64,000 bases of DNA from Bacteriovorax sp. BSW11_IV (GTDB lineage: Bacteria > Bdellovibrionota > Bacteriovoracia > Bacteriovoracales > Bacteriovoracaceae), in contig NZ_AUNE01000038.1 of NCBI RefSeq assembly GCF_000447755.1, positions 1-64,000 of the forward strand. The letters are read 5' to 3'. The notes below the pieces were generated by a model. It saw only the letters and a program-made list of their open reading frames with translations, made no database searches and was not told the DNA's origin. Shown piece by piece: positions 5,918-23,709 of the stretch. Position 1 is the stretch's first letter, and every line of letters starts with the position of its first letter. A program made the position numbers and the translations under genes.

Positions 5918-6805
5918 TTATTTAGAAATTGAATCCATTAATGCCTTTCTTGCAGGCGTGTTTTTAAGATCCATTAGATACTTCACGTAGTGAGCAACTG
6001 CCCATACGTCTTCATCAGAAATTGTATCTTTCCAGCTTGGCATTGCAGTTCCACCAACACCAGCATTAAGTCTGATATAAAGATCTTGAACTGTTGTTGC
6101 TGAACGAACAAAGTCCCAAGTAAATTCAGGTGGCATTGACTTAAATCCCCACTCTGTTTCTTGCATTTTGATCTTGTACATATCTGGATCGAAATCTGTA
6201 ACTTTCTCACCGTTTACTTTAAGGTTGATGTCACTAAATTCTTTGTGACCAACATAAGCTCTGTGACAAGACTGACAGTTTGCAACCGCGTGATAAACTT
6301 CTTTACCTCTTTGGATAGCACTTGATTCGTGAGCTGGGCCATATGGATCTTTTGTAACAACAATCGCAGTTCCTAGCTTCTTATCCTTACCTTCCCAAAC
6401 AGCTGGTGCGAAAGTTTTGATATATTGAACAACTGCAAACATTTGATCGTGTGTAAGGTCCCAAGGAAGCATTGCTGTTCCGTGTAGTCCTTCTTTAAGA
6501 ATTTTGTAGAAGTCTCCATCGTGTGGAAGTTCACCAGTTGGAACTTGACCAAACTTGAATACACCTTTTGTAAAATCTCTTGGTGGCACTTGAAGACCTT
6601 TCGCCGCAACACCATGTCCATCACCGTTTACACCGTGACATGCCATACAGTATTCCGTATAGATTGACTTCCCTTTGTTTAGTGCAGCTTTTGGCGCATA
6701 CACTCCACCAGCAAAAACTTTATCCTCTAAAAAGTGTTTCTCACCACATCCCACAAGAGATGCTAAAACACTGAATCCAATTAGAAGCTTAAATGCTTTT
6801 CTCAT
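5918..6805 (-). CDS. Diheme cytochrome c lipoprotein
   Basis: 295 aa from the ATG at 6805 (SD GAGGA at 6811-6815). An upstream extension would overlap coxC and break the signal peptide. Residues 1-20 are a lipoprotein signal (SLVGC), so it is membrane-tethered. There are two CXXCH heme sites, CMACH and CQSCH. C-terminal MPSWKDTISDEDVWAV is typical of class I cytochrome c, with a Met ligand. It lies between coxC and sco and probably feeds electrons to the CuA of subunit II, which itself lacks a fused cytochrome c domain. The first domain has AMLPWDLTHDQM as its Met-side segment. Confidence 0.9.
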   Translation of the reverse strand: MRKAFKLLIGFSVLASLVGCGEKHFLEDKVFAGGVYAPKAALNKGKSIYTEYCMACHGVNGDGHGVAAKGLQVPPRDFTKGVFKFGQVPTGELPHDGDFYKILKEGLHGTAMLPWDLTHDQMFAVVQYIKTFAPAVWEGKDKKLGTAIVVTKDPYGPAHESSAIQRGKEVYHAVANCQSCHRAYVGHKEFSDINLKVNGEKVTDFDPDMYKIKMQETEWGFKSMPPEFTWDFVRSATTVQDLYIRLNAGVGGTAMPSWKDTISDEDVWAVAHYVKYLMDLKNTPARKALMDSISK

Positions 6806-6816
6806 AGCTATCCTCA

Positions 6817-7398
6817 TTATAAAACAAACATCACAACATACATTAAAAGCCAAACGATGCCTAAAAAGTGCCAGAACTTACTCACATTACTTACTGTAGT
6901 AATGTATTTGTCATAGTTCTTAGAAACCATCGCTGGAATCAAAAATAACAACGAAATCAAACCTGCAACGATGTGGGCCGCGTGAATCCAAGTTAGAGAA
7001 TACATTAATGATGGGAAAACCCCACCTTCAACGAAAATTCCCATGTCTTTCATTGAGCTCCAAAGTCTGAATTGAACACCCATGAAGGCGCATCCAAGAA
7101 CAACTGTGCCAATAAAAGGCAGAAGAAGATTTTCATATTTCTTCTGCTCGAAGAATTCCTCAAACTTCCAAAGGGCCAAACTGCTTAGAGCGATAATAAA
7201 TGTACTTACCGTTGGTAAGAACAATGGCACTCTTTGCATTCCCATTGGTGGCCACTCGTCGGCCGTTACGCGATAAATCGCATAACCTAAAAGTAAAGTT
7301 GCAAAAAGCATTGAAAAAGAAACGAGAAGAAAGATCATCCCAATTGATGATGTGATCTTTCTACCTTCAACGCTTGCGATTTCTGTTCTTGCAACCAT
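6817..7398 (-). CDS. coxC: Cytochrome c oxidase subunit III
   Basis: 193 aa, five transmembrane segments, the short bacterial type without the two extra N-terminal helices. Typical pieces are GMIFLLVSFSMLFATLLLGY near the start and YSLTWIHAAHIVAGL, with WHFLGIVWLLMYVVMFVL at the C-terminus. It lies 8 bases downstream of coxA. A second, different subunit III is encoded at 16058-16693. Confidence 0.93.
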   Translation of the reverse strand: MVARTEIASVEGRKITSSIGMIFLLVSFSMLFATLLLGYAIYRVTADEWPPMGMQRVPLFLPTVSTFIIALSSLALWKFEEFFEQKKYENLLLPFIGTVVLGCAFMGVQFRLWSSMKDMGIFVEGGVFPSLMYSLTWIHAAHIVAGLISLLFLIPAMVSKNYDKYITTVSNVSKFWHFLGIVWLLMYVVMFVL

Positions 7399-9173: not shown

Positions 9174-9983
9174 TTACCAGTCCCAACGCCAGCCCCAGAA
9201 AAGTTCTGGATTTTCTGGATCATTTACTGATAATGCTTTCTCTTCAGCTTCATCCATCCAACGCTTGAAATCTTCTTCAGAGTAAGTTGTAAGGTGAGCT
9301 TTCATTCTGTAGTGATATGTTCCACACATTTCAGCACAAGCAATATCCCAATCCCCAGCTTTTGTAGGTTGGAACCAAAGTCTTGTTAAACGTCCAGGAA
9401 TCGCATCAACTTTTCTTCTCGCATTCGGAAAATAAAGTGAGTGGATAACGTCTTTAGAAAGAATTTGGAAAAGAACTTTTCTCCCAACTGGAAGGCGTAG
9501 ATCATTTAGATAAACTACGTCGTCTTCAGTATTGAAAACCCCGTCTTTACCTGCATAACGAAAGTTCCATGCCCATTGTTGCGCAAGAACTTCTACCTTA
9601 AGTGGATTCTCATCCTCTTTTGGCCAGTTAGCAAAAACGCCAATGTAATCATTGTTCGACATTCTTGTAATGTTCATATCGATACCAATAAATACCGATA
9701 GACCAATAATTGTCGCAACAATTACGTGAATCTTTTTGTTCCCGTAAGTGTAGTGCGCTTTCGGATGTCTTTTTGCTGAATAGAAAAAAGAAAAACCAAA
9801 TAGCCCTGCACATACAAGCGCAAAGAAGAAAATGTTCAGGTAAGTCGTGTAGGCAAATAGCCAATCGATCAAGTGACCATGAACAGAAATATCTTCAGGA
9901 GGCGTCATGCGTTCCCAAAGACTCATTGATTTTGTTGCAGTATCAACAGCTGCAGCAGAAAGTAACGGCATAAAAAAACTCAT
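9174..9983 (-). CDS. coxB: Cytochrome c oxidase subunit II
   Basis: 269 aa. Two transmembrane hairpins lie near residues 45-68 and 88-105, followed by a periplasmic cupredoxin domain. The CuA site is complete: a His in SKDVIHSLYFPNARRKVD and the cluster CAEMCGTYHYRMKAH (Cys, Glu, Cys, His, Met). It accepts electrons from cytochrome c. There is no C-terminal fused heme c domain. It is the first gene of the cox operon (coxB-coxA-coxC-cyt c-sco-coxD-small protein). Confidence 0.95.
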   Translation of the reverse strand: MSFFMPLLSAAAVDTATKSMSLWERMTPPEDISVHGHLIDWLFAYTTYLNIFFFALVCAGLFGFSFFYSAKRHPKAHYTYGNKKIHVIVATIIGLSVFIGIDMNITRMSNNDYIGVFANWPKEDENPLKVEVLAQQWAWNFRYAGKDGVFNTEDDVVYLNDLRLPVGRKVLFQILSKDVIHSLYFPNARRKVDAIPGRLTRLWFQPTKAGDWDIACAEMCGTYHYRMKAHLTTYSEEDFKRWMDEAEEKALSVNDPENPELFWGWRWDW

Positions 9984-10099: not shown

Positions 10100-11905
10100 C
10101 TATCTGAAGAAAATCATGGAACCTAGCAATAAAGGTAAATAAATTATCGACGCCCAAAAATAATTTCTTGCCCAATCTTTTTGCGATGCTTCATCAGATT
10201 TAAAGAAGCCAACAAACGAAAGTGCAACAAAAGCTAAATTTAAAATAAAACTAAACCAAGCAAAAACTTTTGTATTAAGCCCATTAACATAAGGCATAAT
10301 CGCTACAATTGCGAGAACAACTGTAAAGGCCGCAATACCAATCTTCGTTGGACCCATTCCATTTTGGTTTGGATAAACTTTAATGCTCGCCGCACCATAA
10401 TCCTGTGAATGATAAATTGAAATGGCCAGGAAGTGCGGAAGTTGCCACACGAAAAGAATTGCAAAAAGTACCCAGGCCATCACATCCATCTCACCCATAA
10501 CAAGCGTCCAACCTAAAACAGGAGGGATTGCGCCAGGAATGGCCCCAACATAGACGGCCGTTGGGCTTTTTTGCTTCAATGGCGTGTAAGCATATAAATA
10601 TAGAACTGCAGCGATCGCAGCAAGGTACGAAGTCACAGGGTTGATATAGAAATAAATGAGTGGCAAAGAAATAATCAGGCAGACCCAACCATAAACGAGG
10701 GCCACGATTGGCTTCATTCTGCCAGCTGGAAGTGGTCGGTCCTTTGTCCTCTCCATCTTCGCATCAACATCTTTTTCGATGTAGCAATTCAAAATGGCCG
10801 CGCCCATTACAACAAGTTGCACCAAAAAGAACGATAAAATGGCCTTAAAAAAACCGATTGGTTTAGGAGCGAGTAAAATTCCTACCCCAACAGTAACCAT
10901 TACAAGTCCTGCAAGCTTTGGCTTTGTCAGCATCACAAGATCAGACCAAAGTGTATGAAGTCCACTTGGGAACATCTTTGATTCAAGATCTTCAAGCATT
11001 TTATTAATTGTCCAAAGTTTGAATAAAGCAATAATGGCCGCTGCAAAGTGAAGACTTACAAAAATATCTCTGTTTTCAAATTGAAGTAATTTTTTGGCAG
11101 TAAAGGCCAATACAGACAAAAGAACCAAAGTTAGCGACGTGCTTCTCATTAAACTTTGTGCAAACGAACTATTCAAGGCCTTACGACATAATACTACGAC
11201 ATTGGTACTAAAATAGAACGAGATCAGGATTGTCAAAATTCCTAAAAAGCGATGGGCCATATTCAACTGCCCTTCATTAATTGGAGGCCAAAATGAAAAT
11301 TGCCCGAGTCCCTGAACGACACAAAGGTGAACATCTTCAACGCCGAGGCCACAAACTTTTCCTGCTCCTGATTTTTGAACAAGAAGTCCAAGCATTGCTT
11401 GGATGAAAACTAGAGCAAAGCAAAACAAGATACCATTACGAGTATTTGCTTTATAACCTTTTTTAAATTTTTCAATTAGCTCTTGAGCAATGTCAGTTTC
11501 TGTTAAAAGTGATTTTAGATTTACCAACGAGCAAATATAGAAAATAGAAAGAGCAAAGTGGCAAATTGAAACAAGTGTAGGCAACTTATAGATCGCACTA
11601 ACAGCTCCTAGGCCGCCTTCTGTAATGATTATAAAAAAAGGAATAAGCGCTTTTTTCTTCAATACAGTGTCTGTTGTACTTTTTCTGATCGAGAAAGTTA
11701 CGATAATCGTAAAAATGAAGGCCACCAGTCCGAGGATTCTGTGAAAAGTTGGCAGCATGCCTTCAACTGTGAATGATGTCTCATAACACACTGGCCATGA
11801 AGGACAATTAAGTCCAGCACCCGTTTGTTGCAATAGACCTCCGGCCGCCATTAATAGGAAGCCGATGAGGATGAGAATATTTATAAATAAAATATTTTTT
11901 TTCAT
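10100..11905 (-). CDS. Heme A synthase / heme O synthase fusion (CtaA-CtaB)
   Basis: 601 aa, two membrane enzymes in one chain. Residues 1 to about 300 are CtaA/COX15-like with eight helices. The four heme-binding His are present (in FHRILGL, ICHFALS, AHRFLGI and SLHFAAA), as are the Cys pairs GLNCPSWPVC and GKVCGLGVEDVHLC. Residues about 315-601 are CtaB (protoheme IX farnesyltransferase, UbiA fold) with NCYIEKDVDAKMERTKDRPL and HSQDYGAASIKVYPNQ. CtaB farnesylates heme B to heme O and CtaA oxidises heme O to heme A, so the fusion joins consecutive steps. It lies next to coxB, with a second CtaA upstream. Confidence 0.93.
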   Translation of the reverse strand: MKKNILFINILILIGFLLMAAGGLLQQTGAGLNCPSWPVCYETSFTVEGMLPTFHRILGLVAFIFTIIVTFSIRKSTTDTVLKKKALIPFFIIITEGGLGAVSAIYKLPTLVSICHFALSIFYICSLVNLKSLLTETDIAQELIEKFKKGYKANTRNGILFCFALVFIQAMLGLLVQKSGAGKVCGLGVEDVHLCVVQGLGQFSFWPPINEGQLNMAHRFLGILTILISFYFSTNVVVLCRKALNSSFAQSLMRSTSLTLVLLSVLAFTAKKLLQFENRDIFVSLHFAAAIIALFKLWTINKMLEDLESKMFPSGLHTLWSDLVMLTKPKLAGLVMVTVGVGILLAPKPIGFFKAILSFFLVQLVVMGAAILNCYIEKDVDAKMERTKDRPLPAGRMKPIVALVYGWVCLIISLPLIYFYINPVTSYLAAIAAVLYLYAYTPLKQKSPTAVYVGAIPGAIPPVLGWTLVMGEMDVMAWVLFAILFVWQLPHFLAISIYHSQDYGAASIKVYPNQNGMGPTKIGIAAFTVVLAIVAIMPYVNGLNTKVFAWFSFILNLAFVALSFVGFFKSDEASQKDWARNYFWASIIYLPLLLGSMIFFR

Positions 11906-11978: not shown

Positions 11979-12962
11979 TTATGCTCTGTTGTTCTTCTTT
12001 GGAGCGAGTAAATTTATGTCGCAAAAACAAGTATACTGGAAGCCCATTAACATTACCGCTGCCACTAAATGCACTGGCTGCATCGAGCGCGGAAAGTGGA
12101 AATATACGAGCGAAATCCCCGCAATTAACGACAATAAAACAGAAAAAATCATTCCTAAGTTATGAAATCGTAGTCTTGGATTAACGCCACTCATCAAAAA
12201 AAGTTTATAAGAAAAGAAACCTTGAATCAGTACTAATAAGATTGAATACGATCTGTGAATATAAAAGACTGGGCCTAGAGTTGAAAGCCAGGCCTCTCTC
12301 TCCCCTTCCAGTAATCCTTTTGCAACATGATCAACCGCCTCTCGAACTTGGGTCCCAAGAACAACTTGGATCATTGTCAGAACCATTACAACAATTGAAA
12401 GTCTTCTTAAAAGAGTAAAATCCGATTGTGACAGAGTCTTTGTGACAACTTCTTCTTCCAGTAGATATTTCTTTTTTTGTAGAAGTATAAAAACAATCAC
12501 GATGGCCATTACCATGTGAAGGGTTATGATCACTGGTTTTAAATGTGTTGAAACAACGACTGCACCAAGCCAACCTTGGAAAATGACGGCAATCAAATTA
12601 AATTGCGCAAGCCAGAAAATTCGCTTATCTGATTTTCTATAAGAAAATGCTAAAACGGATAGGATGAGAATAAAAAATCCTGTTAGCATTCCAAATAATC
12701 TATTTAAATATTCAGTCCATGTTTTAACGACATTGAAATCAGCAATCTCTTTGCCTTTAATAGCAAATTGCATCTTATAATCCGTTGGTAACTGACTAAT
12801 ATCTGTTGGGGGGACAATCTTACCAAAACAAGTTGGCCAATCAGGACACCCTAGTCCAGAACCAGTGCTGCGCACGATGCCACCGATTAAAATTAAGATA
12901 TAAACAGTTATAAGAACAATGTTAATGAAGCTTTTAAAATTACGTTTACTGACAAATGCCAT
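11979..12962 (-). CDS. ctaA: Heme A synthase (CtaA/COX15 family), second copy
   Basis: 327 aa from the ATG at 12962, which has AAGGTGAG seven bases upstream. A longer reading needs a TTG with no good SD. Eight transmembrane segments, with the Cys pair GLGCPDWPTC in the first loop. His residues appear in ITLHMVMA, YIHRSYSI and QPVHLVAA. The first-helix-pair position that is usually ExxH reads TEYLNRLFG, so His is replaced by Asn. It may still be active, since I recall other COX15 subgroups with Asn here, or it may pair with the CtaA domain of the fusion. It lies 73 bases upstream of the fusion gene in the same direction. Confidence 0.88.
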   Translation of the reverse strand: MAFVSKRNFKSFINIVLITVYILILIGGIVRSTGSGLGCPDWPTCFGKIVPPTDISQLPTDYKMQFAIKGKEIADFNVVKTWTEYLNRLFGMLTGFFILILSVLAFSYRKSDKRIFWLAQFNLIAVIFQGWLGAVVVSTHLKPVIITLHMVMAIVIVFILLQKKKYLLEEEVVTKTLSQSDFTLLRRLSIVVMVLTMIQVVLGTQVREAVDHVAKGLLEGEREAWLSTLGPVFYIHRSYSILLVLIQGFFSYKLFLMSGVNPRLRFHNLGMIFSVLLSLIAGISLVYFHFPRSMQPVHLVAAVMLMGFQYTCFCDINLLAPKKNNRA

Positions 12963-13052
12963 GGAAAAACTCACCTTGGAAGATTGAGGAACCTCTTTCA
13001 AATACAGTAGAATAACTAAAAAAGTCAAAAGAACAAAAGGATGGTTTTGATC

Positions 13053-14147
13053 ATGAACCGAAATATTGGCCCAACATATTATAGCGACTACTTACATCTG
13101 AATAAACTTCTTGATAGCCAACATGCTAAATCAAAAGAAGTTGGCCATGAGGCCCATGATGAAATGCTTTTTATTGTTGTTCACCAAGTATACGAACTTT
13201 GGTTTAAGCAAATCATCCATGAACTAAAATCAATTAGAGAGACTTTCAGTCTTCCTTCAATTGCTGAGAAAGAACTTTCAAAATGTGTTTTTCGTCTTGA
13301 AAGAATAAAAAAAATTCAAGGCCTTCTGTTAAATCAACTTGAAGTTATGGAGACGATGACTCCAATGGATTTTTTAGAATTTAGAGATCTGCTAGTTCCA
13401 GCTTCTGGATTTCAAAGCGTTCAGTTTCGAACAATTGAAATTATGATGGGATTAAAAACCACAGATCGTATCGATGTCGATCGTGAATTCTTTACTGGTA
13501 GACTAAATGACGAAGACAAAGAAGTTATCAATGAAGTTGAAAAACATGAGTCGCTACTTGTTTTAGTTCAGAATTGGCTAGAGAGAATGCCTTTTACAAA
13601 ATTCGAAGGTTTCGACTTTTGGAATTCATATCGTGATGCTGTTGAAGGAATGTTTAAAAGAGATGAAGAAATCATTTCAGGAAATATAGCTTCTCTAACA
13701 GATAGGGCGAGAGAAATTCAATTAGAAAATCTTAAGGCCACAAAAGAAACTTTCAACTCACTTTTAGACGAAGATGCTCATAATAAACTCATTGAACTTA
13801 AGAAAAGAAAGCTCTCAAGAACTGCAACTTTAAATGCTCTTTTCATTCTCATGTATCGTGAGGAACCGATTCTACATCTTCCTTATGTATTTCTTAGAAA
13901 CCTAATGGACATAGATGAGAACTTTACAACATGGCGCTATCGTCACTCCATCATGGCCCATCGAATGCTAGGAACAAAGATTGGAACGGGAGGAAGCTCT
14001 GGTCACGTTTATTTAAAAAGAGCGGCCGATAATAATCGTGTATATAATGATCTTTTTGATCTTTCGACATTTATTATTCCAAAATCTGAGATGCCAAAAC
14101 TGCCTGTGCAACTAACTGATCATTTAGGTTTTCATTTTAGAGGTTAA
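13053..14147 (+). CDS. kynA: Tryptophan 2,3-dioxygenase
   Basis: 364 aa from the ATG at 13053 (AGG about 10 bases upstream). An ATG at 13041 is also in frame. It is a heme enzyme that opens the indole ring of L-tryptophan to N-formylkynurenine. Family signatures are YYSDYLHLNKLLDSQ, HDEMLFIVVHQVYELWFKQI, FRDLLVPASGFQSVQFR, the heme-ligand region YRHSIMAHRMLGTKIGTGG and GSSGHVYL. Length is longer than short bacterial forms (about 280) and closer to animal TDO. It forms an operon with the kynureninase-like gene, which starts two bases after its stop. Confidence 0.96.
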   Translation: MNRNIGPTYYSDYLHLNKLLDSQHAKSKEVGHEAHDEMLFIVVHQVYELWFKQIIHELKSIRETFSLPSIAEKELSKCVFRLERIKKIQGLLLNQLEVMETMTPMDFLEFRDLLVPASGFQSVQFRTIEIMMGLKTTDRIDVDREFFTGRLNDEDKEVINEVEKHESLLVLVQNWLERMPFTKFEGFDFWNSYRDAVEGMFKRDEEIISGNIASLTDRAREIQLENLKATKETFNSLLDEDAHNKLIELKKRKLSRTATLNALFILMYREEPILHLPYVFLRNLMDIDENFTTWRYRHSIMAHRMLGTKIGTGGSSGHVYLKRAADNNRVYNDLFDLSTFIIPKSEMPKLPVQLTDHLGFHFRG

Positions 14148-14148
14148 A

Positions 14149-15297
14149 ATGTTCAAGAAGTATTATTCAAGATTTCTAGAAGCAAATAAGGGCAAACTTC
14201 ATATGGCCTGTCACAGTCACCACTATTGGCCAGACTGTACAAGAGAAGCAACGCTAGAGTATTGGGATGATACTGCAAAATATGTGGATGAAAAATGGGG
14301 GCATATATTTTCGAATGTTATCCCCAAAGCGCAGAGACTTATTGCTAAAAATTTGAATATTGTAAATCCCTCGAGGATTGCGTTTGCTCCAAACACACAC
14401 GAGTTGGCCTTTCGTCTTTTGAGTGCTCTTGATTTAAGAAATGAAATCTCAATTCTAACAACTGATAGTGAATATCATTCATTCGAAAGACAAATTCAAA
14501 GACTAAGCGAGTGGGAAAACATTAAAGTAAAAAAAATTCCAGTTCTCCCTATCGAAACTTTTGAAGAGCGTTTTTTAGCTGAACAAGAACATACTTACGA
14601 TCTCGTCTTCTTTAGCCATGTTTTCTTTAACAGTGGACTAGCAGTTAAAGGATTTAAGAATATCGTTAATGCTTTTTACAAAAAGAGTATTGTGGCCGTA
14701 GATGGTTACCATGGCTTCATGGCCATTCCAACAGATCTCAGTGATATCGAAAATAAATGCTTCTATATTGCTGGTTCATATAAATATGCTCAAGGTGGAG
14801 AAGGCTGCTGTTTCATGTCATGCCCAGACAATGACTTAAGACCAATGCAAACTGGCTGGTTTGCAGAAATGGATAATTTAGAAAATAAAACTGAAGGACA
14901 AAACGTTACCTACTCTTCAAGTGGATTCAAATTTGCTGGAGCAACAATGGATTTCACTGCGATGTATAGATTAAACGCGACCCTAGGACTGTTTGACCTT
15001 GAGCATATTTCAACTTCAGCTATTCATAAGCATATTCAAAAAATTCAATCAAATTTCCTTAAAGAACTTCCTGAGCATGGTCTCGTAAGCAAGAATTCAT
15101 TGCTTATAAATGAAGCCGATTACCATGGGCATTTCTTTACATTTCAAATAGGTGATCCCGTAAAGACTAAAGAACTCTATAATCAATTATCAAAAATTGG
15201 TATTCAGACAGATTTTAGAAATGATCGACTCAGATTTGGTTTTGGGATGTACCATGATGAAAGCTTAGATTTCTCTTTTTTGAAAAATCTTAATTAA
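14149..15297 (+). CDS. Kynureninase-like PLP enzyme (class V aminotransferase fold)
   Basis: 382 aa. The fold-type I PLP signature is GSYKYAQGGEG, with the presumed Schiff-base Lys. VAVDGYHGFMAIP (the Asp-x-x-His type PLP-pyridine site) and GWFAEMDN...YSSSGFKFAGATMDF resemble kynureninase. Its start lies just after the kynA stop, so the two are translationally linked. That supports cleavage of kynurenine to anthranilate and alanine. No formamidase for N-formylkynurenine is visible in the window. A different class V lyase activity cannot be excluded from sequence alone. Confidence 0.78.
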   Translation: MFKKYYSRFLEANKGKLHMACHSHHYWPDCTREATLEYWDDTAKYVDEKWGHIFSNVIPKAQRLIAKNLNIVNPSRIAFAPNTHELAFRLLSALDLRNEISILTTDSEYHSFERQIQRLSEWENIKVKKIPVLPIETFEERFLAEQEHTYDLVFFSHVFFNSGLAVKGFKNIVNAFYKKSIVAVDGYHGFMAIPTDLSDIENKCFYIAGSYKYAQGGEGCCFMSCPDNDLRPMQTGWFAEMDNLENKTEGQNVTYSSSGFKFAGATMDFTAMYRLNATLGLFDLEHISTSAIHKHIQKIQSNFLKELPEHGLVSKNSLLINEADYHGHFFTFQIGDPVKTKELYNQLSKIGIQTDFRNDRLRFGFGMYHDESLDFSFLKNLN

Positions 15298-15832
15298 AGA
15301 TTTTTAAGAAGAAGAAAATGGCCACTCCAGTAATTGAAACATAAATCCAAATTGGAAAAGTGAACTTTGCAATTTTCTTGTGAGATTTAAAATTCCCTCT
15401 AAGTCCGTGCCATAAAGTAGCAAATATCATGGGAACCATTACTGTGCTCAAAACAATATGAGTAATAAGAATGAAAAAATAGATTGGCCTAACTAGTCCT
15501 TCACCCAAAAATTTCGTATCACCATGGTAGTGGTGATAAATAATATAGCTAATAAGAAAACAAGCTGATGTTGCAGTGGCACCCAACATTGAGGCGATAT
15601 GCTTAGACTTCTTCCCATTCTTAATAAACCAGTAGCCAACAATCAGTAAAATTGTTGTTAGAGTATTAAGAGCTGCATTCAGAGCAGGTAGATAAGAGAT
15701 CATTACATGGTCTGAACTACGACCTTCATTCACATAAATTAACCAAAATAAAAAAGCGATAACCAGTGTGCTTACAACACCAATTACCGCATAGGCCTTT
15801 TTATCTACTGAGTTAATTTCGCTTGAGCTCAT
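15290..15832 (-). CDS. DUF420 membrane protein (possible oxidase assembly factor)
   Basis: 180 aa, five hydrophobic segments (about 17-36, 48-68, 84-102, 119-144 and 157-177). Conserved-looking His residues occur in YIIYHHYHGD, THIVLSTVM and LWHGLRGNFKSHKKIA. This matches DUF420, a family that includes CtaM of Firmicutes, needed for heme A oxidase assembly. It overlaps the end of the kynureninase-like gene by 8 bases (convergent). Its start overlaps the stop of the preceding small gene (TAATG), so it belongs to the bc/multiheme operon. Confidence 0.82.
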   Translation of the reverse strand: MSSSEINSVDKKAYAVIGVVSTLVIAFLFWLIYVNEGRSSDHVMISYLPALNAALNTLTTILLIVGYWFIKNGKKSKHIASMLGATATSACFLISYIIYHHYHGDTKFLGEGLVRPIYFFILITHIVLSTVMVPMIFATLWHGLRGNFKSHKKIAKFTFPIWIYVSITGVAIFFFLKIFN

Positions 15833-16057: not shown

Positions 16058-16693
16058 TTACAGTAGGTAGATAAATGTGAAAACTAGAATCCAAACAAGG
16101 TCAACAAAGTGCCAGAATAGTCCAGCAATTTCTAACTGTCCGTAATCACCTTTATCAAATCGTCCATCAAGAGCTTGCTTATACATATAACAAAGGTAAA
16201 GAACACCAGATAGTACGTGGAGTCCGTGAAACCCTGTAATAGAGAAGAAAGTTGATGAAAATAGGTTATTTCCATGAGCATAGGTACTAAAAGTCATACC
16301 CATAGCATCCATCAAGTGATAGTACTCGTACGCTTGAATACCAAGGAAGATCGCTCCACCTACGATAGTTGCAAGCAACCAGTTTAGCATTTCCTGTCTT
16401 GCTCTTCTTTTACATGCATCAATAGACATAACCATAGATACTGAAGAACAGATAAGAATAAAAGTCATAATCCCTGAAAGGTGTACACCACCTAGCGCTT
16501 CAACTGGATTTGGCCAATCTTTAGTGGCACGTAAAACAGCATAAGCAATAAGGAACCCAGAAAAAGACATAGCATCCGTTCCTAAGAACAACCACATCCC
16601 AACTTTACCTGGGGAAGCTTTTCCAAACTGAGGATCGTTTGGATATGAGATTAGCCCATCGTGAACTTTAACTTCGTGAGTAGCGTGACCCAT
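16058..16693 (-). CDS. Second cytochrome oxidase subunit III-like protein
   Basis: 211 aa, five transmembrane helices. The subunit III pattern is KVGMWLFLGTDAMSFSGFLIAY, then SITGFHGLHVLSGVLYL, with FWHFVDLVWILVFTFIYLL at the C-terminus. It is divergent in sequence from the coxC at 6817-7398. No subunit I lies beside it. It is placed directly after the eight-heme cytochrome c gene, so it may join the bc complex to the oxidase or serve an oxidase encoded elsewhere. SD AGGAGAT precedes the ATG. Confidence 0.9.
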   Translation of the reverse strand: MGHATHEVKVHDGLISYPNDPQFGKASPGKVGMWLFLGTDAMSFSGFLIAYAVLRATKDWPNPVEALGGVHLSGIMTFILICSSVSMVMSIDACKRRARQEMLNWLLATIVGGAIFLGIQAYEYYHLMDAMGMTFSTYAHGNNLFSSTFFSITGFHGLHVLSGVLYLCYMYKQALDGRFDKGDYGQLEIAGLFWHFVDLVWILVFTFIYLL

Positions 16694-16721: not shown

Positions 16722-19547
16722 CTATTTTTTAGTCTCTGGAGAATATTTATCTTCACCAATTTCCAGAAGGTACTTAGTAAGTGCATTGATTTGCTTCTCA
16801 GCATCTCCACCAAATACTTCTGTATCTGTACTTTCACCATTTTCCCAGAAAGATGGCATTACTGTTCCTGGAAGAATTTTTTGTGGATCATGTAACCACT
16901 TCTTAATCCAGCTTGCTCTTAGTCTTCTCTTCGCAAAGTGAAGATTTGGTGCAGTTGGATCTTCTTTGTTAAATCCAGTAGTGTGACAAGAAGCACAGTC
17001 TAAACTCTTAAATAGTTTTACTGCCCCTTCTCTTTCACCAGGTAACCATTTAACTGTCTCATAGTTTTCTTCGAAAGTTTCTTGTCCAGCTTTTGCTTGG
17101 AACATAGCTACAATCTTATTTCTTTCATCATTTGAAAGAACAAATGATGGCATTCTTACGTTCAACCATGGTCTGATCTTATAAACATTGTTTAAGAAGA
17201 AGTGGAACCAATCAGCTTGAACTCTATGTCCTTCACCAACAAGTCTTGGTGGCGCTTCATTGATATCATCTGGATACATATTAACGATGTCTCCGAACAT
17301 TCCATCAATTTGGTGACAACCAACACAGTTGAATTTTTGTACAACTTTCATACCTTCTGCAACAACAGCTTCTCTAGCATCAAGTCTCTTAACACCTGAT
17401 AGAGGAACTTTATCTGCAACCTGTCCAAGTAGAGCTGTCGTAATTGTCTCAGCTTCTTTTTCAGACATATCGAAGTTAGGCATTCTTAGTAAATCTTTGA
17501 ATGGCTTATCTACACCGTTATCCCATCTTCTAGGATTGATAAGGTGAGCTTTAATCCAACCATCTCTTGATTTTTCTACATCGTACTCGTGAGAGAAACC
17601 AAATTGAGTAAGTGGTTTAGAACCAACTTTTGTAAGTTCTGGACCAATTGGAGCTCTACCATCAAATCCTTCAATCGAGTGACATGAGTAACATCCGTAC
17701 TTACCAACAGATCTGTAACCAAGCTCTAGAGTTCTTTCTCTATCGCTCATGCTAGCAAGCTTCTTCTTAGCAACTTCTTCAGTATCAAACGCAGAGAAGT
17801 ACTCAACAAGTAGTTCATCTCTAAGTTCTTTGCTCATATCTTCAAACTTTAAAGATTCGAACTTCTTATTTTTCATGCTCATTAAGTAAGCAGTGATGTC
17901 ATTAGCTTCTCTGTCTGTTAGACGGAAAGAAGGCATAATTGTATCTTCTTGGTAGTGAGATGGTTTCTTTAACCAAGACACTAGCCAATCTGCATCTACT
18001 TTAGACCCAATTCCAGTAAGGAATGGACCTGCGTGAGCATTAACTTTCTTAGATTCAGGAGCAAAATCATCTACTCCGTGACATGCCATACATCCTACAG
18101 ACTTAACTAGCTCTTTTCCTTTTTCAGAATTACCACCAGAGTACTTCATGAAAGGCTTGTAAGGCTTAGACTTATCGTAAATGAATTCTGCAATAGCATT
18201 AACTTCTGCAATATTCTTTTTAATAAATTCATCTTTCTTCGTATTGTTCATTTGCATGAAGAAAGAAGGCATTTTTGCATGCTTATTAAATGACTTCGGA
18301 TCCCATACCCAGTTTTTAAAGAATTCTTTATCAACTTTCGCTGCAATTTTCTCTAAACTTGGACCTGGTTTACGCTTATGCTCCCACCCTTCGATTTTGT
18401 GACAAGCATAACATCCAAACTTTTCAATATTTCTTCTACCTTCATTAAGAGCTGTTGCTCCAGGAAGATATTGAGTTTCAGTGTGACACTTAACACAACC
18501 GGCTTCAGAATGTTGCTTCTTGAACATTTCGATAGGCACTTTGTGTGGAGCATGCCAGTGATATTTCTGAATCCACTCAGCTTTTTGCTCTTCATTCTGA
18601 GGAATGTGAGCCGCTGAATTGAAATTAGTTACTCTATGACCTTCACCACCGTGACAAGTTGTACAACCAAATTTCTTCATCGGGTGAGTTGAATTTGCCC
18701 CAACCATCATATCAAGCTTCGGGTGAGTCTTGTGTGGATTCGGTTGATCTTCGTAACCTTCTTGATCAATAAAAGTGTGACAAGTAATACATCTATCAAC
18801 CTTTGGAACGTGTTGGAAGTATCTATCATCAGTAATATTTTCAAGTACGATTTGGTGAATCTTCACTGTTGGATCTAAGAAATCAACAAAAGGAGCGTTT
18901 CTTAATGCAAAAAGTGGATTAAGAGCAAGCTTCGACTCCGCCTTCTGCAATAGATCAAGCTTCATAGTAATACCAGTAAGTTCTTTTTCTAATGTAGTAA
19001 GGTCAGATTTCTCAGCAGCAATTGCTTTGTTTTTTGTTTTTTCCTGAGCCTGAAGGGCCTTCATTCTGTCTTTCGATTCAGCGAATAGCCTTTTTTCTTC
19101 TCTTAGCTTCTTAAATAGGTCGCCTGCATTTGCTTTATGGTGAGAATGTGCGTTCTCCCACTTGAAAGTAAGTGCAGCAACTTGAGAGTTAAGACGACCA
19201 TTGATAATCGTCTCTTCTTTAATATGCTTAAGAATTTGCTCTAATTCGTCAGTGATCTGATCAATTGTTTCTTTTTTAGAAGCAACGTTAGCTTTCGCTT
19301 CTTCAATTTTCTTTTCTAGATCAGCAACCTTATCTTTATCGATAGTTTTTTCTTCTTCCGCTACTTGTCCAGCAAGTTTAGATTTTTTAATCTTCATTGC
19401 TTCTACTTGGATAGCTTTCCATGGACGGATATAGTCATCCAAGAAAACCCATACAACCGTAATTAATAGCGCAACTGAGAAGAAGGCAAATACCTTGTTC
19501 AGTTTATCCATGTTAAAGGCCATTCCTGGCTCATTCTTTTTACTCAT
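16722..19547 (-). CDS. Membrane-anchored eight-heme cytochrome c with coiled coil
   Basis: 941 aa from the ATG at 19547 (a TTG two codons upstream is possible). Residues about 19-40 are a membrane anchor and 50-215 a charged coiled coil. Eight CXXCH motifs follow near residues 253, 295, 351, 379, 486, 619, 741 and 851 (CITCH, CTTCH, CVKCH, CYACH, CMACH, CYSCH, CVGCH, CASCH). The last five are each followed by an MPSF or MPNF segment, the Met-ligand signature of class I cytochrome c. This implies a triheme N-part plus five tandem monoheme domains. It sits directly after the two cytochrome b genes, where cytochrome c1 would be. Confidence 0.93.
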   Translation of the reverse strand: MSKKNEPGMAFNMDKLNKVFAFFSVALLITVVWVFLDDYIRPWKAIQVEAMKIKKSKLAGQVAEEEKTIDKDKVADLEKKIEEAKANVASKKETIDQITDELEQILKHIKEETIINGRLNSQVAALTFKWENAHSHHKANAGDLFKKLREEKRLFAESKDRMKALQAQEKTKNKAIAAEKSDLTTLEKELTGITMKLDLLQKAESKLALNPLFALRNAPFVDFLDPTVKIHQIVLENITDDRYFQHVPKVDRCITCHTFIDQEGYEDQPNPHKTHPKLDMMVGANSTHPMKKFGCTTCHGGEGHRVTNFNSAAHIPQNEEQKAEWIQKYHWHAPHKVPIEMFKKQHSEAGCVKCHTETQYLPGATALNEGRRNIEKFGCYACHKIEGWEHKRKPGPSLEKIAAKVDKEFFKNWVWDPKSFNKHAKMPSFFMQMNNTKKDEFIKKNIAEVNAIAEFIYDKSKPYKPFMKYSGGNSEKGKELVKSVGCMACHGVDDFAPESKKVNAHAGPFLTGIGSKVDADWLVSWLKKPSHYQEDTIMPSFRLTDREANDITAYLMSMKNKKFESLKFEDMSKELRDELLVEYFSAFDTEEVAKKKLASMSDRERTLELGYRSVGKYGCYSCHSIEGFDGRAPIGPELTKVGSKPLTQFGFSHEYDVEKSRDGWIKAHLINPRRWDNGVDKPFKDLLRMPNFDMSEKEAETITTALLGQVADKVPLSGVKRLDAREAVVAEGMKVVQKFNCVGCHQIDGMFGDIVNMYPDDINEAPPRLVGEGHRVQADWFHFFLNNVYKIRPWLNVRMPSFVLSNDERNKIVAMFQAKAGQETFEENYETVKWLPGEREGAVKLFKSLDCASCHTTGFNKEDPTAPNLHFAKRRLRASWIKKWLHDPQKILPGTVMPSFWENGESTDTEVFGGDAEKQINALTKYLLEIGEDKYSPETKK

Positions 19548-19574: not shown

Positions 19575-20651
19575 TTAGAGACTCAATTCCAATTCAGGAA
19601 GTGCAATAATGTACTTTAAGCTAAACAACCATCTAAGAACCATCTTAATTGGTAGTGAAGTCATTCCTAGTAGAAGGAAAATAAAGATGTAGTATCTTAC
19701 TTTCCCCATATCACCGATTAACTTCTTCCCCCACTTAGTAGTGGCAGAAAGAGGTGGAAGAACAACAACATATACAGCTGTTAAGATAATTCCTAAGAAC
19801 TCTCTTACGATCATATTGTGTGGCATTGGCATATTTAACCATTTTACCCACACAAACTCTGATAAGTTGACGTTATATTCGGCAACAACTTTGTGGAAAT
19901 CCCAGAACTCAAACGGACCGTAGAATGTCCAGTTTGGACCTCTTAGGAATGTACCTACGATAATTAGGTAGATCCACAGAACTAGCCAACCGAACATGAA
20001 AAACCACATTGCCATTTTTCTCTCAGCAATAGTGAAGTATCCGTTACCTTTTGGATTTGTATCAATGTATGGAACTGCTAAAAGTCCAACAACGATTAGA
20101 CCAGGAAGAACAACCCCTGCCATCCAAGGGTCAAAGTATACAAGCATTTCTTGTAGACCTAGGAAGTACCAAGGAGCTTTCGCTGGGTTTGGCGCCCAAG
20201 TTGGGTTAGCAGGTTCTTCAAGTGGAGCTTTAAAAATAATGGCCCAAACAACTAAGAAGATAGTTGTTCCGATCATACACATAAGCTCTACGTATACTAG
20301 GTTTGGCCATGTCCAAACTTTTTCTCTATTTTCAGGAGTAGCTTCAATTGGAGTTAGACCTTGTTCAAGTCTTTCGTCGTTTTGAGCACATCTATAAAGA
20401 GAGTACCAAGTTAACCATGCGATCAACACGATAATAATGTTGATAGGAATGTTGTCTGGCCAAAGAATAATGGCCACGAAGTTTGGATCCGTACAAAACC
20501 AAACTACGACTGGTAATAAAACTGCAAGTGAAATGTAAGCAAACTTCTTTGTCCCAACAATTCTATAATATCTCATCATTAGATAGTACAGAAGCGTTAC
20601 CACAGGGAACGATCTAATTGGGTCTGCCATCCAGTTAATAAATTCTTTCAT
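19575..20651 (-). CDS. Cytochrome b, C-terminal part (subunit IV-like)
   Basis: 358 aa, about eight hydrophobic segments. PNPAKAPWYFLGLQEMLVYF carries the Qo-site motif in the APWY form instead of PEWY, as in many split-b complexes of deltaproteobacteria and Gram-positives. DPWMAGVVLPGLIV and VPYIDTNPKGNGY follow. The chain has extra N- and C-terminal membrane segments compared with the 160-aa subunit IV of b6f. It forms the quinol oxidation site with the N-terminal cytochrome b encoded 31 bases upstream. Confidence 0.93.
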   Translation of the reverse strand: MKEFINWMADPIRSFPVVTLLYYLMMRYYRIVGTKKFAYISLAVLLPVVVWFCTDPNFVAIILWPDNIPINIIIVLIAWLTWYSLYRCAQNDERLEQGLTPIEATPENREKVWTWPNLVYVELMCMIGTTIFLVVWAIIFKAPLEEPANPTWAPNPAKAPWYFLGLQEMLVYFDPWMAGVVLPGLIVVGLLAVPYIDTNPKGNGYFTIAERKMAMWFFMFGWLVLWIYLIIVGTFLRGPNWTFYGPFEFWDFHKVVAEYNVNLSEFVWVKWLNMPMPHNMIVREFLGIILTAVYVVVLPPLSATTKWGKKLIGDMGKVRYYIFIFLLLGMTSLPIKMVLRWLFSLKYIIALPELELSL

Positions 20652-20682: not shown

Positions 20683-21465
20683 TTATAGTGGTGCCGAGAT
20701 ACCACCGTCTTTTCTTACGCGCCAGAAGTGAACAGCAATTAGCGTTCCAACTACAAGCGGAATGAAAACACAGTGAAGAATGTAAAATCTAAGTAGCGCT
20801 GGCTCACCAACAAAACGTCCTGCTAGAAGCTGGAAGCGCACGTCGTTTTTATCCGATACCATTACGAAGTCACCGATTTGAGCTAGCGCCGCTCCTGGAC
20901 CACCGTGCCCAAGGAATGGAGTAGCTTTTGCCATGTTCGAACCAACTGTAATCGCCCAAATAGCAAGCTGATCCCATGGAAGAAGATAACCAGTGAATGA
21001 AAGAAGAAGTGTAAGTACTAAAAGAATAACACCAACACCCCAGTTGAATTCTCTAGGTGGTTTGTATGAACCTGTCATGAATACACGGAACATGTGTAGC
21101 CAAACAGTAATAACCATCGCGTGAGCACCCCATCTGTGAATCTCTCTCATAATACCGAGAGGCACGTGCTCTTTAAGTGCGATAATATCGTTGTAAGCAT
21201 ATTCAGCTGTTGGTCTGTAATAGAACATTAAAAGAAGACCAGTAACAGTTAGGGCAAGGAAGATAAAGAATGTTAATCCCCCCATACACCATGTGTATCC
21301 TAGCTGAACACCTGACTTTTTTAACTTAATTGGGTGTAAGTGTAAAAATACGTTACCCGCGATTACGGCTGCTCTATTACGTGCATTATTAGGTGGCCCG
21401 TGTCTGAAGATTGACTTCCAAACCTGGGTCTCACGAACTTTGTCAGCAAAACCTTTTCCAGACAT
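20683..21465 (-). CDS. petB: Cytochrome b, N-terminal part (b6-like, binds two hemes b)
   Basis: 260 aa, four core helices. Heme ligands appear as two His pairs: [14 protein letters not shown] and [12 protein letters not shown] in the second helix region and beyond, then [12 protein letters not shown] and [13 protein letters not shown] near the C-terminus. [16 protein letters not shown] is the conserved Qo-side stretch. It is a split cytochrome b, completed by the next gene. SD GAAGGA precedes the ATG. A short tandem repeat lies just upstream (21497-21524). Confidence 0.95.
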
Positions 21466-21530: not shown

Positions 21531-22034
21531 TTAAACGCCAATGTATGAATCTGGGTGATCCCACTGACCCATCTCGTATCTGAAGATCTTCGTCTTATCT
21601 ACAACGATCTTTCCGTCAGAATTTAACGAGATTTTGTATCTCTCTAATGGTCTTGGAGCTGGTCCCTCAAAGTTAATACCACTCATGTAGTAACCTGAAC
21701 CGTGACATGGACACTTAAACTTCAACTCGGCAGGTAACCAGTTAGGTACACAACCAAGGTGAGTACAGATATTTGAAAGGGCCACAAGCTTACCTTCTTG
21801 CTTAACCATCCAAACACCAAAACCATTTTTCCATCTCTCGTCTACACCGTTTTCATACTCCGTAGGAAAACCTGCAACGAAATCCATCTCTGGTTCGAAG
21901 TTAACGTTTGGATAAGTAAAGCGAAACGCTAAACTTCCAAGCCCCGCAAGCGCAGCTGTGAAAGCAACCCATCCTACTGTGATGAAACTAAAGAATTCTC
22001 TTCTGTTTAATTGTTGTCTGGTCTCTTCTGACAT
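21531..22034 (-). CDS. petA: Rieske iron-sulfur protein
   Basis: 167 aa from the ATG at 22034, with AGAGGA nine bases upstream. A TTG seven codons earlier is less likely. A twin-arginine-like N-terminus (NRREFFSF) is followed by one membrane anchor (VGWVAFTAALAGLGSLAF). The [2Fe-2S] ligands are in CTHLGCVPNW and CPCHGSGY. It transfers electrons from quinol at cytochrome b to the c-type hemes. It is the first redox gene of the bc operon. Confidence 0.95.
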   Translation of the reverse strand: MSEETRQQLNRREFFSFITVGWVAFTAALAGLGSLAFRFTYPNVNFEPEMDFVAGFPTEYENGVDERWKNGFGVWMVKQEGKLVALSNICTHLGCVPNWLPAELKFKCPCHGSGYYMSGINFEGPAPRPLERYKISLNSDGKIVVDKTKIFRYEMGQWDHPDSYIGV

Positions 22035-22072
22035 GACCTCAAATCCTCTTTTCAAAGAAATAAATTATTAAA

Positions 22073-22146: not shown

Positions 22147-23031
22147 TCACTTTTTCAACAAATTTAAAACTTCCTTGGCCTTAGATACAATCTTTACATC
22201 CTCATCGTTAACCGAGATTTCCCCGATTTTTTGAAGCAGTGCGCCCCACTCAACCTTTACAGCAGCGTTAATCACATTAAGCTTCAGCGCAGCAATTTGA
22301 TCAACTGTAAATAAAGGAGATTTCCCTGCTTCTTCAGATGGAACATATTTTAATCTTAACACCTCTTCCAATACTGGAAGGGCCTTGTCACTTCTAAAGT
22401 AAATTAGTGAAGTCGCTGCAGCAAACTTAATACCGCTACCCTCATTATTTAACAGGGCTTCAATCTGAGCTTGCGCTTCAACAACTCTATGAGTTCCCAG
22501 CGCCAAAACTGTCGCTTGAACAAGAGCGTGATCCTCATTATTTAGATATTCCATCAATTTCGACCAATCAAAAGTTTCAATGTGAGGAATATTTCCAATT
22601 GCTACGATTGAATGGAAAACAATATTTTTATCTGTTTCTGAGATCGAGTCTTTAAGTAAACTTAATGAAAGAGGAGTGCGCAGCGCACCAAGAGCAACAA
22701 CAACAAAATCTTTTGTTCTTGTATCAATAGTATTTCTGTAAACTGACTCTAAATTTTCTACTAACCATGGCACATCCTCTTCAGGAATTTTGCCTGCGCT
22801 GATCACTTTTGAAAGCTCAAGGGCCGCAACCCACTTATTTCCAAAAGTTTTCGACTGCATTTCTCGCACAAGATCCTTGTACGATTGATCAGTTGAAATC
22901 ATCTTTGTTACGCCAAAAATCACCAAAGCACCGATTAATACGATAGCTATAGGGACCACAAGACTTCCCACAAAAGAGTTTTCCATTATTTTCTTGTCGA
23001 TAGGACTCTGCTTATTCTCAGTCATAGGCAT
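22147..23031 (-). CDS. Membrane-anchored HEAT-repeat-like protein
   Basis: 294 aa from the ATG at 23031; another ATG lies two codons later and the SD is weak. A cytoplasmic N-terminus is followed by one transmembrane segment (about residues 24-44, FVGSLVVPIAIVLIGALVIF). Then come repeated helical pairs of HEAT type, e.g. WVAALELSKVI, FVVVALGALRTPLSLSLL, HALVQATVLALGTHR and KFAAATSLIYFRS. Such repeats bind partner proteins. Being the first gene ahead of the Rieske/cytochrome b operon, it may be an assembly or scaffold factor. The function is inferred only from position. Confidence 0.75.
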   Translation of the reverse strand: MPMTENKQSPIDKKIMENSFVGSLVVPIAIVLIGALVIFGVTKMISTDQSYKDLVREMQSKTFGNKWVAALELSKVISAGKIPEEDVPWLVENLESVYRNTIDTRTKDFVVVALGALRTPLSLSLLKDSISETDKNIVFHSIVAIGNIPHIETFDWSKLMEYLNNEDHALVQATVLALGTHRVVEAQAQIEALLNNEGSGIKFAAATSLIYFRSDKALPVLEEVLRLKYVPSEEAGKSPLFTVDQIAALKLNVINAAVKVEWGALLQKIGEISVNDEDVKIVSKAKEVLNLLKK

Positions 23032-23100
23032 CTCAATGCTTTTCAAAATTAAGGATCTGTTTTATATGAAGTGGTGTCAGATTTAACAAATCTACATTAC

Positions 23101-23163: not shown

Positions 23164-23709
23164 ATGGCGTATTTACTTCGTGGACTTATTTTACTTATGG
23201 TAGCAGGTGTTCTACTCACTGCAGGACTAGCGATTGGCTTTATCCACCTTCCTTTGAACCATATTCAGGTGGCCATTCCAACGTTCATTTATACAATTTT
23301 CGCACAGGCCTTCGTCATGTTTTATTTCATTGGCGTATCGCGTCTGGTCAACAATATTCACCTCATTCTTCACTCTGAAAAAAATCTTCACGAATTATTT
23401 GAGGCTCCTCCTGCGGATCTTGCTCCTTATACTAAGAAAGTTGAAAGATTTGTTCACGAAGCAGATCTTGCAAAACGCCAAACGATTCCATGGACAATGC
23501 TGATGCTAATTCTTGGAATGATTGCCTTTTTATTAGGTGGTGCCCACGATACAAATCTGGTTCAAAAAACAACTCACTCTGGTGTTGTTTATGGATTTAT
23601 TGCGGCCATGCTTATTGGTTTTTTTAGACAGTGGTGGTTTCTTGGGAAGGCCCACATTCTCTTAAGAAAAGTTAAAGGCCTTTTTGAAATTCCAGACGGA
23701 AGTATGTAG
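23164..23709 (+). CDS. Four-helix membrane protein of unknown function
   Basis: 181 aa with transmembrane segments near residues 5-27, 36-58, 102-122 and 138-156. A hydrophilic stretch (about 65-100) contains FVHEADLAKRQTIPW. His, Trp and Asp residues near membrane borders (GGAHDTNLVQKTTHSG, RQWWFLGKAH) are notable. No family is recognised. It is divergent from the bc operon and shares the gap with a palindromic operator candidate, so co-regulation with respiration is possible. Confidence 0.75.
   Translation: MAYLLRGLILLMVAGVLLTAGLAIGFIHLPLNHIQVAIPTFIYTIFAQAFVMFYFIGVSRLVNNIHLILHSEKNLHELFEAPPADLAPYTKKVERFVHEADLAKRQTIPWTMLMLILGMIAFLLGGAHDTNLVQKTTHSGVVYGFIAAMLIGFFRQWWFLGKAHILLRKVKGLFEIPDGSM

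Follow-up and report, generated by a model that had tools for sequence, protein, structure and literature searches.

The window, the whole stretch of 64,000 nucleotides of Bacteriovorax sp. BSW11_IV DNA that was analysed, carries on its minus strand a reading frame of 941 aa that starts with an ATG at 19547 and ends with a stop codon at 16722–16724, exactly where the initial annotation had placed a composite cytochrome c. The encoded protein begins with a single membrane helix, continues with a long, charged helical stretch and three His-rich CXXCH hemes, and ends in five class I cytochrome c domains in tandem (Table 1). Eight CXXCH motifs are present and every one of the 16 cysteines lies within them; in composition-preserving shuffles (n = 2000) the mean number of such motifs was 0.01 and the maximum was 2. 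MPSF or MPNF segments follow the last five hemes only, at the methionine positions listed in Table 1, and residues 13–39 form the single hydrophobic helix. The eight hemes, the Met-ligand segments and the membrane anchor thus stand as first described, as do the neighbours: a split cytochrome b upstream, a COX III gene downstream and another COX III gene at 6817–7398.

Table 1. Features of the octaheme gene and its neighbourhood (window positions; aa, amino acid residue; AF2, AlphaFold2).
Feature	Position	Strand	Basis
DUF420 protein	15290..15832	-	
COX III-like protein downstream (second subunit III)	16058..16693	-	
Octaheme c-type cytochrome, putative complex subunit, whole gene, 941 aa	16722..19547	-	
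Class I heme domain 5 (C851, M897)	16743..17042	-	
Class I heme domain 4 (C741, M799)	17094..17378	-	
Class I heme domain 3 (C619, M689)	17412..17738	-	
Class I heme domain 2 (C486, M538), SoxX/cytochrome c fold	17850..18140	-	
Class I heme domain 1 (C379, M426)	18162..18449	-	SoxX model TIGR04485
Triheme module, aa 213-366; CXXCH at aa 253, 295, 351; candidate distal ligands H275, H288, H314	18450..18911	-	Pfam Cytochrome_C7/c3
Predicted antiparallel helical hairpin, arms aa 71-135 and 141-205	18933..19337	-	AF2 pLDDT about 84-95, SerRS and Smc arm matches, indel pattern
Predicted hairpin tip, aa 136-140; main indel site among homologues	19128..19142	-	
Predicted linker helix, aa 42-68	19344..19424	-	AF2
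N-terminal membrane anchor helix, aa 13-39; overlaps conserved DDYxRPWKxxQ motif (aa 37-47)	19431..19511	-	
Cytochrome b C-terminal half/subunit IV, 358 aa; KAPWY at PEWY position	19575..20651	-	
Cytochrome b6-type N-terminal half, 260 aa; Cys60 at b6 Cys35 position (heme ci)	20683..21465	-	
Rieske iron-sulfur protein (CTHLGC...CPCHGS)	21531..22055	-	
Membrane-anchored HEAT-repeat protein, first gene of conserved cluster	22147..23046	-	

The five class I domains are homologous to one another with hhalign probabilities of 96.7–99.8%; on profile comparison they are true repeats, the tandem copies that had been proposed, and the triheme part shows weak profile similarity to them. Pfam and NCBIfam matches of the protein are to class I cytochrome c, SoxX and c7/c3 families, with the SoxX model TIGR04485 above its cut-off, and residues 463–560 match the SoxX/cytochrome c fold (Z 13.8, 1.8 Å). 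The invariant methionine in all five domains, the fold match and TIGR04485 agree in assigning these domains to class I cytochrome c/SoxX. When solved structures were searched with the protein sequence, the matches were to single cytochrome c domains only; the whole AlphaFold2 model gave no match at E below 0.001 in Foldseek, and its VIA-align rows concern mainly the hairpin and class I domain 2.

In 46 aligned homologues from at least four phyla, the eight CXXCH histidines, the five methionines and H275, H288 and H314 are invariant; in a set of 39 mixed sequences every CXXCH, the five methionines and exactly these three further histidines are likewise invariant. Sixteen invariant axial ligands for eight hemes point to three bis-His and five His/Met hemes, in line with the earlier description of the first three as His-rich nearby and lacking the Met-ligand segment. 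H275, H288 and H314 are, from their invariance, the obvious candidates for the distal ligands, although any pairing of a given histidine with a given heme is presumptive.

The octaheme gene is the last of a conserved five-gene cluster. In every homologous locus that extends far enough upstream (72/72), the subunit-IV gene lies directly before it, and the order Rieske–b6–subunit IV–octaheme is kept in all 65 loci with room for it. A HEAT-repeat gene usually opens the cluster, in several phyla and including some loci missed by the automatic search; its product, predicted to comprise one transmembrane helix and an alpha-solenoid, is possibly an unrecognised complex III subunit or assembly factor. 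Two traits of b6f-type (heme ci) complexes are present, namely cytochrome b and subunit IV encoded as two genes and the heme-ci cysteine, which is kept in 65 of 68 b6 homologues. The traits expected of a c subunit are also found: linkage to Rieske and cytochrome b genes, eight CXXCH motifs and one N-terminal transmembrane helix.

The genome itself encodes one cytochrome b of the b6-type kind and two heme-copper oxidases, and a gene of b6 size occurs in all 12 octaheme-positive genomes tested. Of 20 listed relatives that lack the octaheme gene, 14 have no cytochrome b. In two more, a split cytochrome b lies close to a contig end and its genes run towards that end, so that the octaheme gene was likely lost to an assembly break; a further two have a cytochrome b of 376–394 residues, and the last two have weak cytochrome b matches in frames of 864–888 residues. 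That the protein stands in the place of cytochrome c1 (or f), as the initial annotation had proposed for c1, is supported both by its position next to cytochrome b in every one of the 72 loci and by its occurrence, which among the tested relatives goes with that of a split cytochrome b of the b6 type.

A separate cytochrome c1, named at the outset as the finding that would speak against this assignment, was sought with PF02167, and no convincing one was found in the genome itself or in 10 relatives. The Pfam matches of the octaheme protein do not include PF02167. In the own genome the sole match above the cut-off is the heme-motif region of a diheme lipoprotein (5918–6853), which was rejected as cytochrome c1 since the PF02167 match spans 44 of 219 positions at 29.4 bits, whereas Cytochrome_CBB3 reaches 67.1 bits; in the 10 relatives nothing exceeded the cut-off. 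From gene linkage, co-occurrence with cytochrome b and the lack of a convincing cytochrome c1, the octaheme protein very probably serves as c-type subunit in a Rieske/cytochrome b complex of the b6f type (heme ci).

Between anchor and hemes, the AlphaFold2 model (single chain, no hemes, mean pLDDT 84, poor at residues 237–300) places the linker helix, the two arms and the tip at the borders given in Table 1. This region had been described as a 165-residue coiled coil. Its charge and heptad-like periodicity stand (period 3.52, equally strong in 1 of 2000 shuffles); the single long coil does not, as the model predicts an intramolecular antiparallel hairpin instead. In structural alignment, residues 86–175 match the seryl-tRNA synthetase arm, which is antiparallel, over 87 residues (2.3 Å), and residues 88–185 match an Smc coiled coil over 93 residues (2.9 Å); as middling scores are common for long helices, these matches support the shape only. 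Most indels in the helical region fall at residue 140, in the predicted tip, with a few at 70, 85–89, 114 and 209; the alignment predates the model, and the homologues are related, so the indels are non-independent events. The arms share 16% identity with distant homologues against 37–47% for the heme parts, yet contain as few indels as these, so that their length is kept and their sequence is not. At 1.5 Å per residue, an arm of 65 residues would measure roughly 10 nm, and the hairpin offers a clean case of a part in which length, not sequence, is conserved.

Our main reading, to which we give a probability of roughly 0.8, is that the octaheme protein is the c-type subunit on the positive side of a Rieske/cytochrome b complex (complex III) of the b6f type, which probably uses menaquinol, with a hairpin and a heme relay working as follows. 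In bc and b6f complexes a c-type heme at the positive side of the membrane receives one electron from the Rieske head, and heme attachment suggests that the octaheme hemes lie on this side. The single N-terminal helix would anchor the subunit next to cytochrome b; the chain would then pass through the predicted hairpin of about 10 nm and return to the bis-His triheme module, followed by the five His/Met class I hemes. Class I His/Met hemes are usually suitable in potential, and bis-His c7-type hemes lie lower, which suggests that electrons enter at one of the His/Met hemes and that the triheme module plays a side part. The Rieske centre would probably pass its electron to one His/Met heme, while the others may form a short relay with several exits at the membrane surface. 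This relay would reduce the cluster's own CuA oxidase, either directly or via the diheme lipoprotein, the likely exits being the CuA subunit and that lipoprotein. The bis-His hemes would probably provide a second port, or a side reservoir at lower potential.

The role of the hairpin would be architectural, with its length fixed, and it would most likely run along the complex or around it rather than form a stalk across the periplasm. More tentatively, an arm of about 10 nm with fixed length and free sequence could be a ruler or clamp in a distinct and widespread class of complex III, encircling cytochrome b and the Rieske protein, or reaching the oxidase, and so setting where the Rieske head and the eight-heme relay meet; we regard this as possible, with the odds somewhat against it.

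The oxidase genes bear on where the electrons may go. The window encodes a CuA subunit at 9174–9983, whose CAEMCGTYHYRM bears the CuA motif, and the diheme protein has a lipoprotein-type start and lies in the oxidase operon. CuA oxidase genes follow the octaheme gene in the window, and they do so as well in many loci of the Bacteriovorax group and in several of the Omnitrophota. The COX III and DUF420 genes directly beside the octaheme gene (DUF420 being the family of the oxidase maturation factor CtaM/YozB) form a pair found there in the Bacteriovorax group only, and oxidase genes adjoin the octaheme gene in some homologues, not all. Direct coupling of the octaheme protein to an oxidase is plausible from this gene order. 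The region also encodes, at 10100–11905 on the minus strand, a protein in which a CtaA-like (heme A synthase) domain is fused to a CtaB-like (UbiA family) one, beside a separate full CtaA at 11979–13028.

A stronger form of such coupling would make the octaheme protein a stable bridge in a complex III–IV supercomplex, its five class I domains docking on the CuA subunit with no soluble carrier and its hairpin holding the oxidase; this is a short-range form of the electron wire proposed at the outset. The bc genes, the COX III/DUF420 pair and the ctaA/ctaB–cox genes share one cluster in the window and in many Bacteriovorax-group loci, coxBA directly follows the octaheme gene in some Omnitrophota loci, and the actinobacterial bcc–aa3 supercomplexes with their diheme QcrC are a precedent. 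Against this, COX III/DUF420 directly adjoins in the Bacteriovorax group only, the oxidase operon has a diheme lipoprotein of its own and the hairpin sequence is not conserved, and we consider the stable bridge doubtful. The initial annotation had further suggested that the protein could span the periplasm as a wire, with the coiled coil as spacer or oligomerisation stalk. A parallel stalk of either kind would be in keeping with the heptad-like periodicity, the strong charge and weak matches to SMC and rootletin models, but the SMC coils that match in shape are antiparallel hairpins themselves, and the high-confidence predicted hairpin, with the homologue indels concentrated at its tip, makes these versions very improbable. 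Equally improbable is an independent periplasmic electron-transfer or metal-reducing cytochrome that is merely co-transcribed, as the c7/c3-like triheme part, the frequent use of multiheme cytochromes in extracellular electron transfer and the resemblance of the cytochrome b to Geobacter ExtP might suggest, given the complete linkage and co-occurrence with b6-type cytochrome b and the lack of any other candidate for the c1/f role beside it.

In a search across the order, 89 of 116 genomes gave a match, nearly always full-length; the others were fragments at contig ends and two distant seven-heme relatives. A profile search of the phylum added further families with homologues. A scan of named genomes, covering the best 80 of 546 relatives so that the phylum range is a lower bound, found full-length homologues, 34–38% identical, in records whose titles name Omnitrophota, Acidobacteria, candidate division FCPU426 and other Bdellovibrionota; such titles can be wrong for metagenome bins. 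No homologue was found in the plasmid collection. The openly accessible literature searched gave no description of an octaheme subunit for Bacteriovorax-group bacteria, Omnitrophota or Acidobacteriota, and the design of eight hemes plus hairpin, common to several phyla, has apparently never been studied on its own.

Of all parts of complex III, the c subunit is conserved least. Actinobacterial bcc complexes, like the complex proposed here, have a multiheme class I c subunit (QcrC) in the place of c1, with two hemes, neither triheme part nor hairpin, and an unsplit cytochrome b. Cytochrome b6f shares with the cluster the split cytochrome b, the heme-ci cysteine and a b6f-like Rieske protein, but here an octaheme class I/triheme subunit replaces monoheme cytochrome f, KAPWY replaces PEWY and the cluster has five genes including the HEAT-repeat protein. 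The nearest description is that of the Rieske/cytochrome b complex Kustd1480–1485 of the anammox bacterium Kuenenia stuttgartiensis, with a four-helix b6-type cytochrome b, a subunit-IV-like protein and heme cN (PMC12954380, doi 10.1002/prot.70084). There a hexa- or octaheme cytochrome c stands in place of cytochrome f, long helices of Kustd1485 wrap the complex, and the need for so many c hemes is described as not clear (PMC12954380). The octaheme protein agrees with Kustd1485, in a likeness by description only, in its multiple c hemes, long helices and b6-like partners. The Kuenenia complex has a putative NAD(P) oxidoreductase, whereas none was seen beside the octaheme gene, which adjoins CuA oxidase genes. 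For a Parcubacterium, a tetraheme protein next to a Rieske/cytochrome b pair has been put forward as a subunit of complex III (PMC5220378). Nitrospina has a split b6f-like operon, and the paper describing it remarks that c subunits in general usually carry one or two hemes and in some cases four (PMC3578206). For anammox Kuenenia, b6f-like complexes with multiheme c subunits are thus already published; new here are the wide spread, the CuA oxidase neighbours and the testable arm geometry. The pattern of eight hemes, all of its ligands fixed, recurs in Omnitrophota, Acidobacteriota, FCPU426 and the Bacteriovorax/Halobacteriovorax group (in the last beside CuA oxidase genes), and the purpose of many c hemes becomes testable outside slow-growing anammox cultures.

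A natural comparison for the role of the hairpin is offered by heptaheme relatives from the same bacterial family (L050, 8617–10440; L051, 8148–9998). Like the octaheme protein they have a membrane anchor, a triheme start, a class I tail and adjoining Rieske and cytochrome b genes; unlike it they have seven hemes and no hairpin. The cytochrome b beside them is unsplit and lacks the heme-ci cysteine, and L050 adjoins cbb3 oxidase genes.

Some further genes lie around these clusters. In two Bdellovibrionota loci (L118, 1866–4530; L112, 2911–4457) the series HEAT–Rieske–b6–subunit IV–octaheme directly follows complex I-like genes (NuoI-like ferredoxin, NuoD-like). Divergent from the HEAT-repeat gene of the window runs a gene for a 181-aa membrane protein (23164–23709, plus strand), which has no Pfam match and is kept in nearly all Bacteriovorax-group loci with room for it. 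The respiratory cluster is interrupted in its middle by genes on the opposite (plus) strand at 13041–15297, which encode a tryptophan 2,3-dioxygenase and a class V aminotransferase protein that may be a kynureninase.
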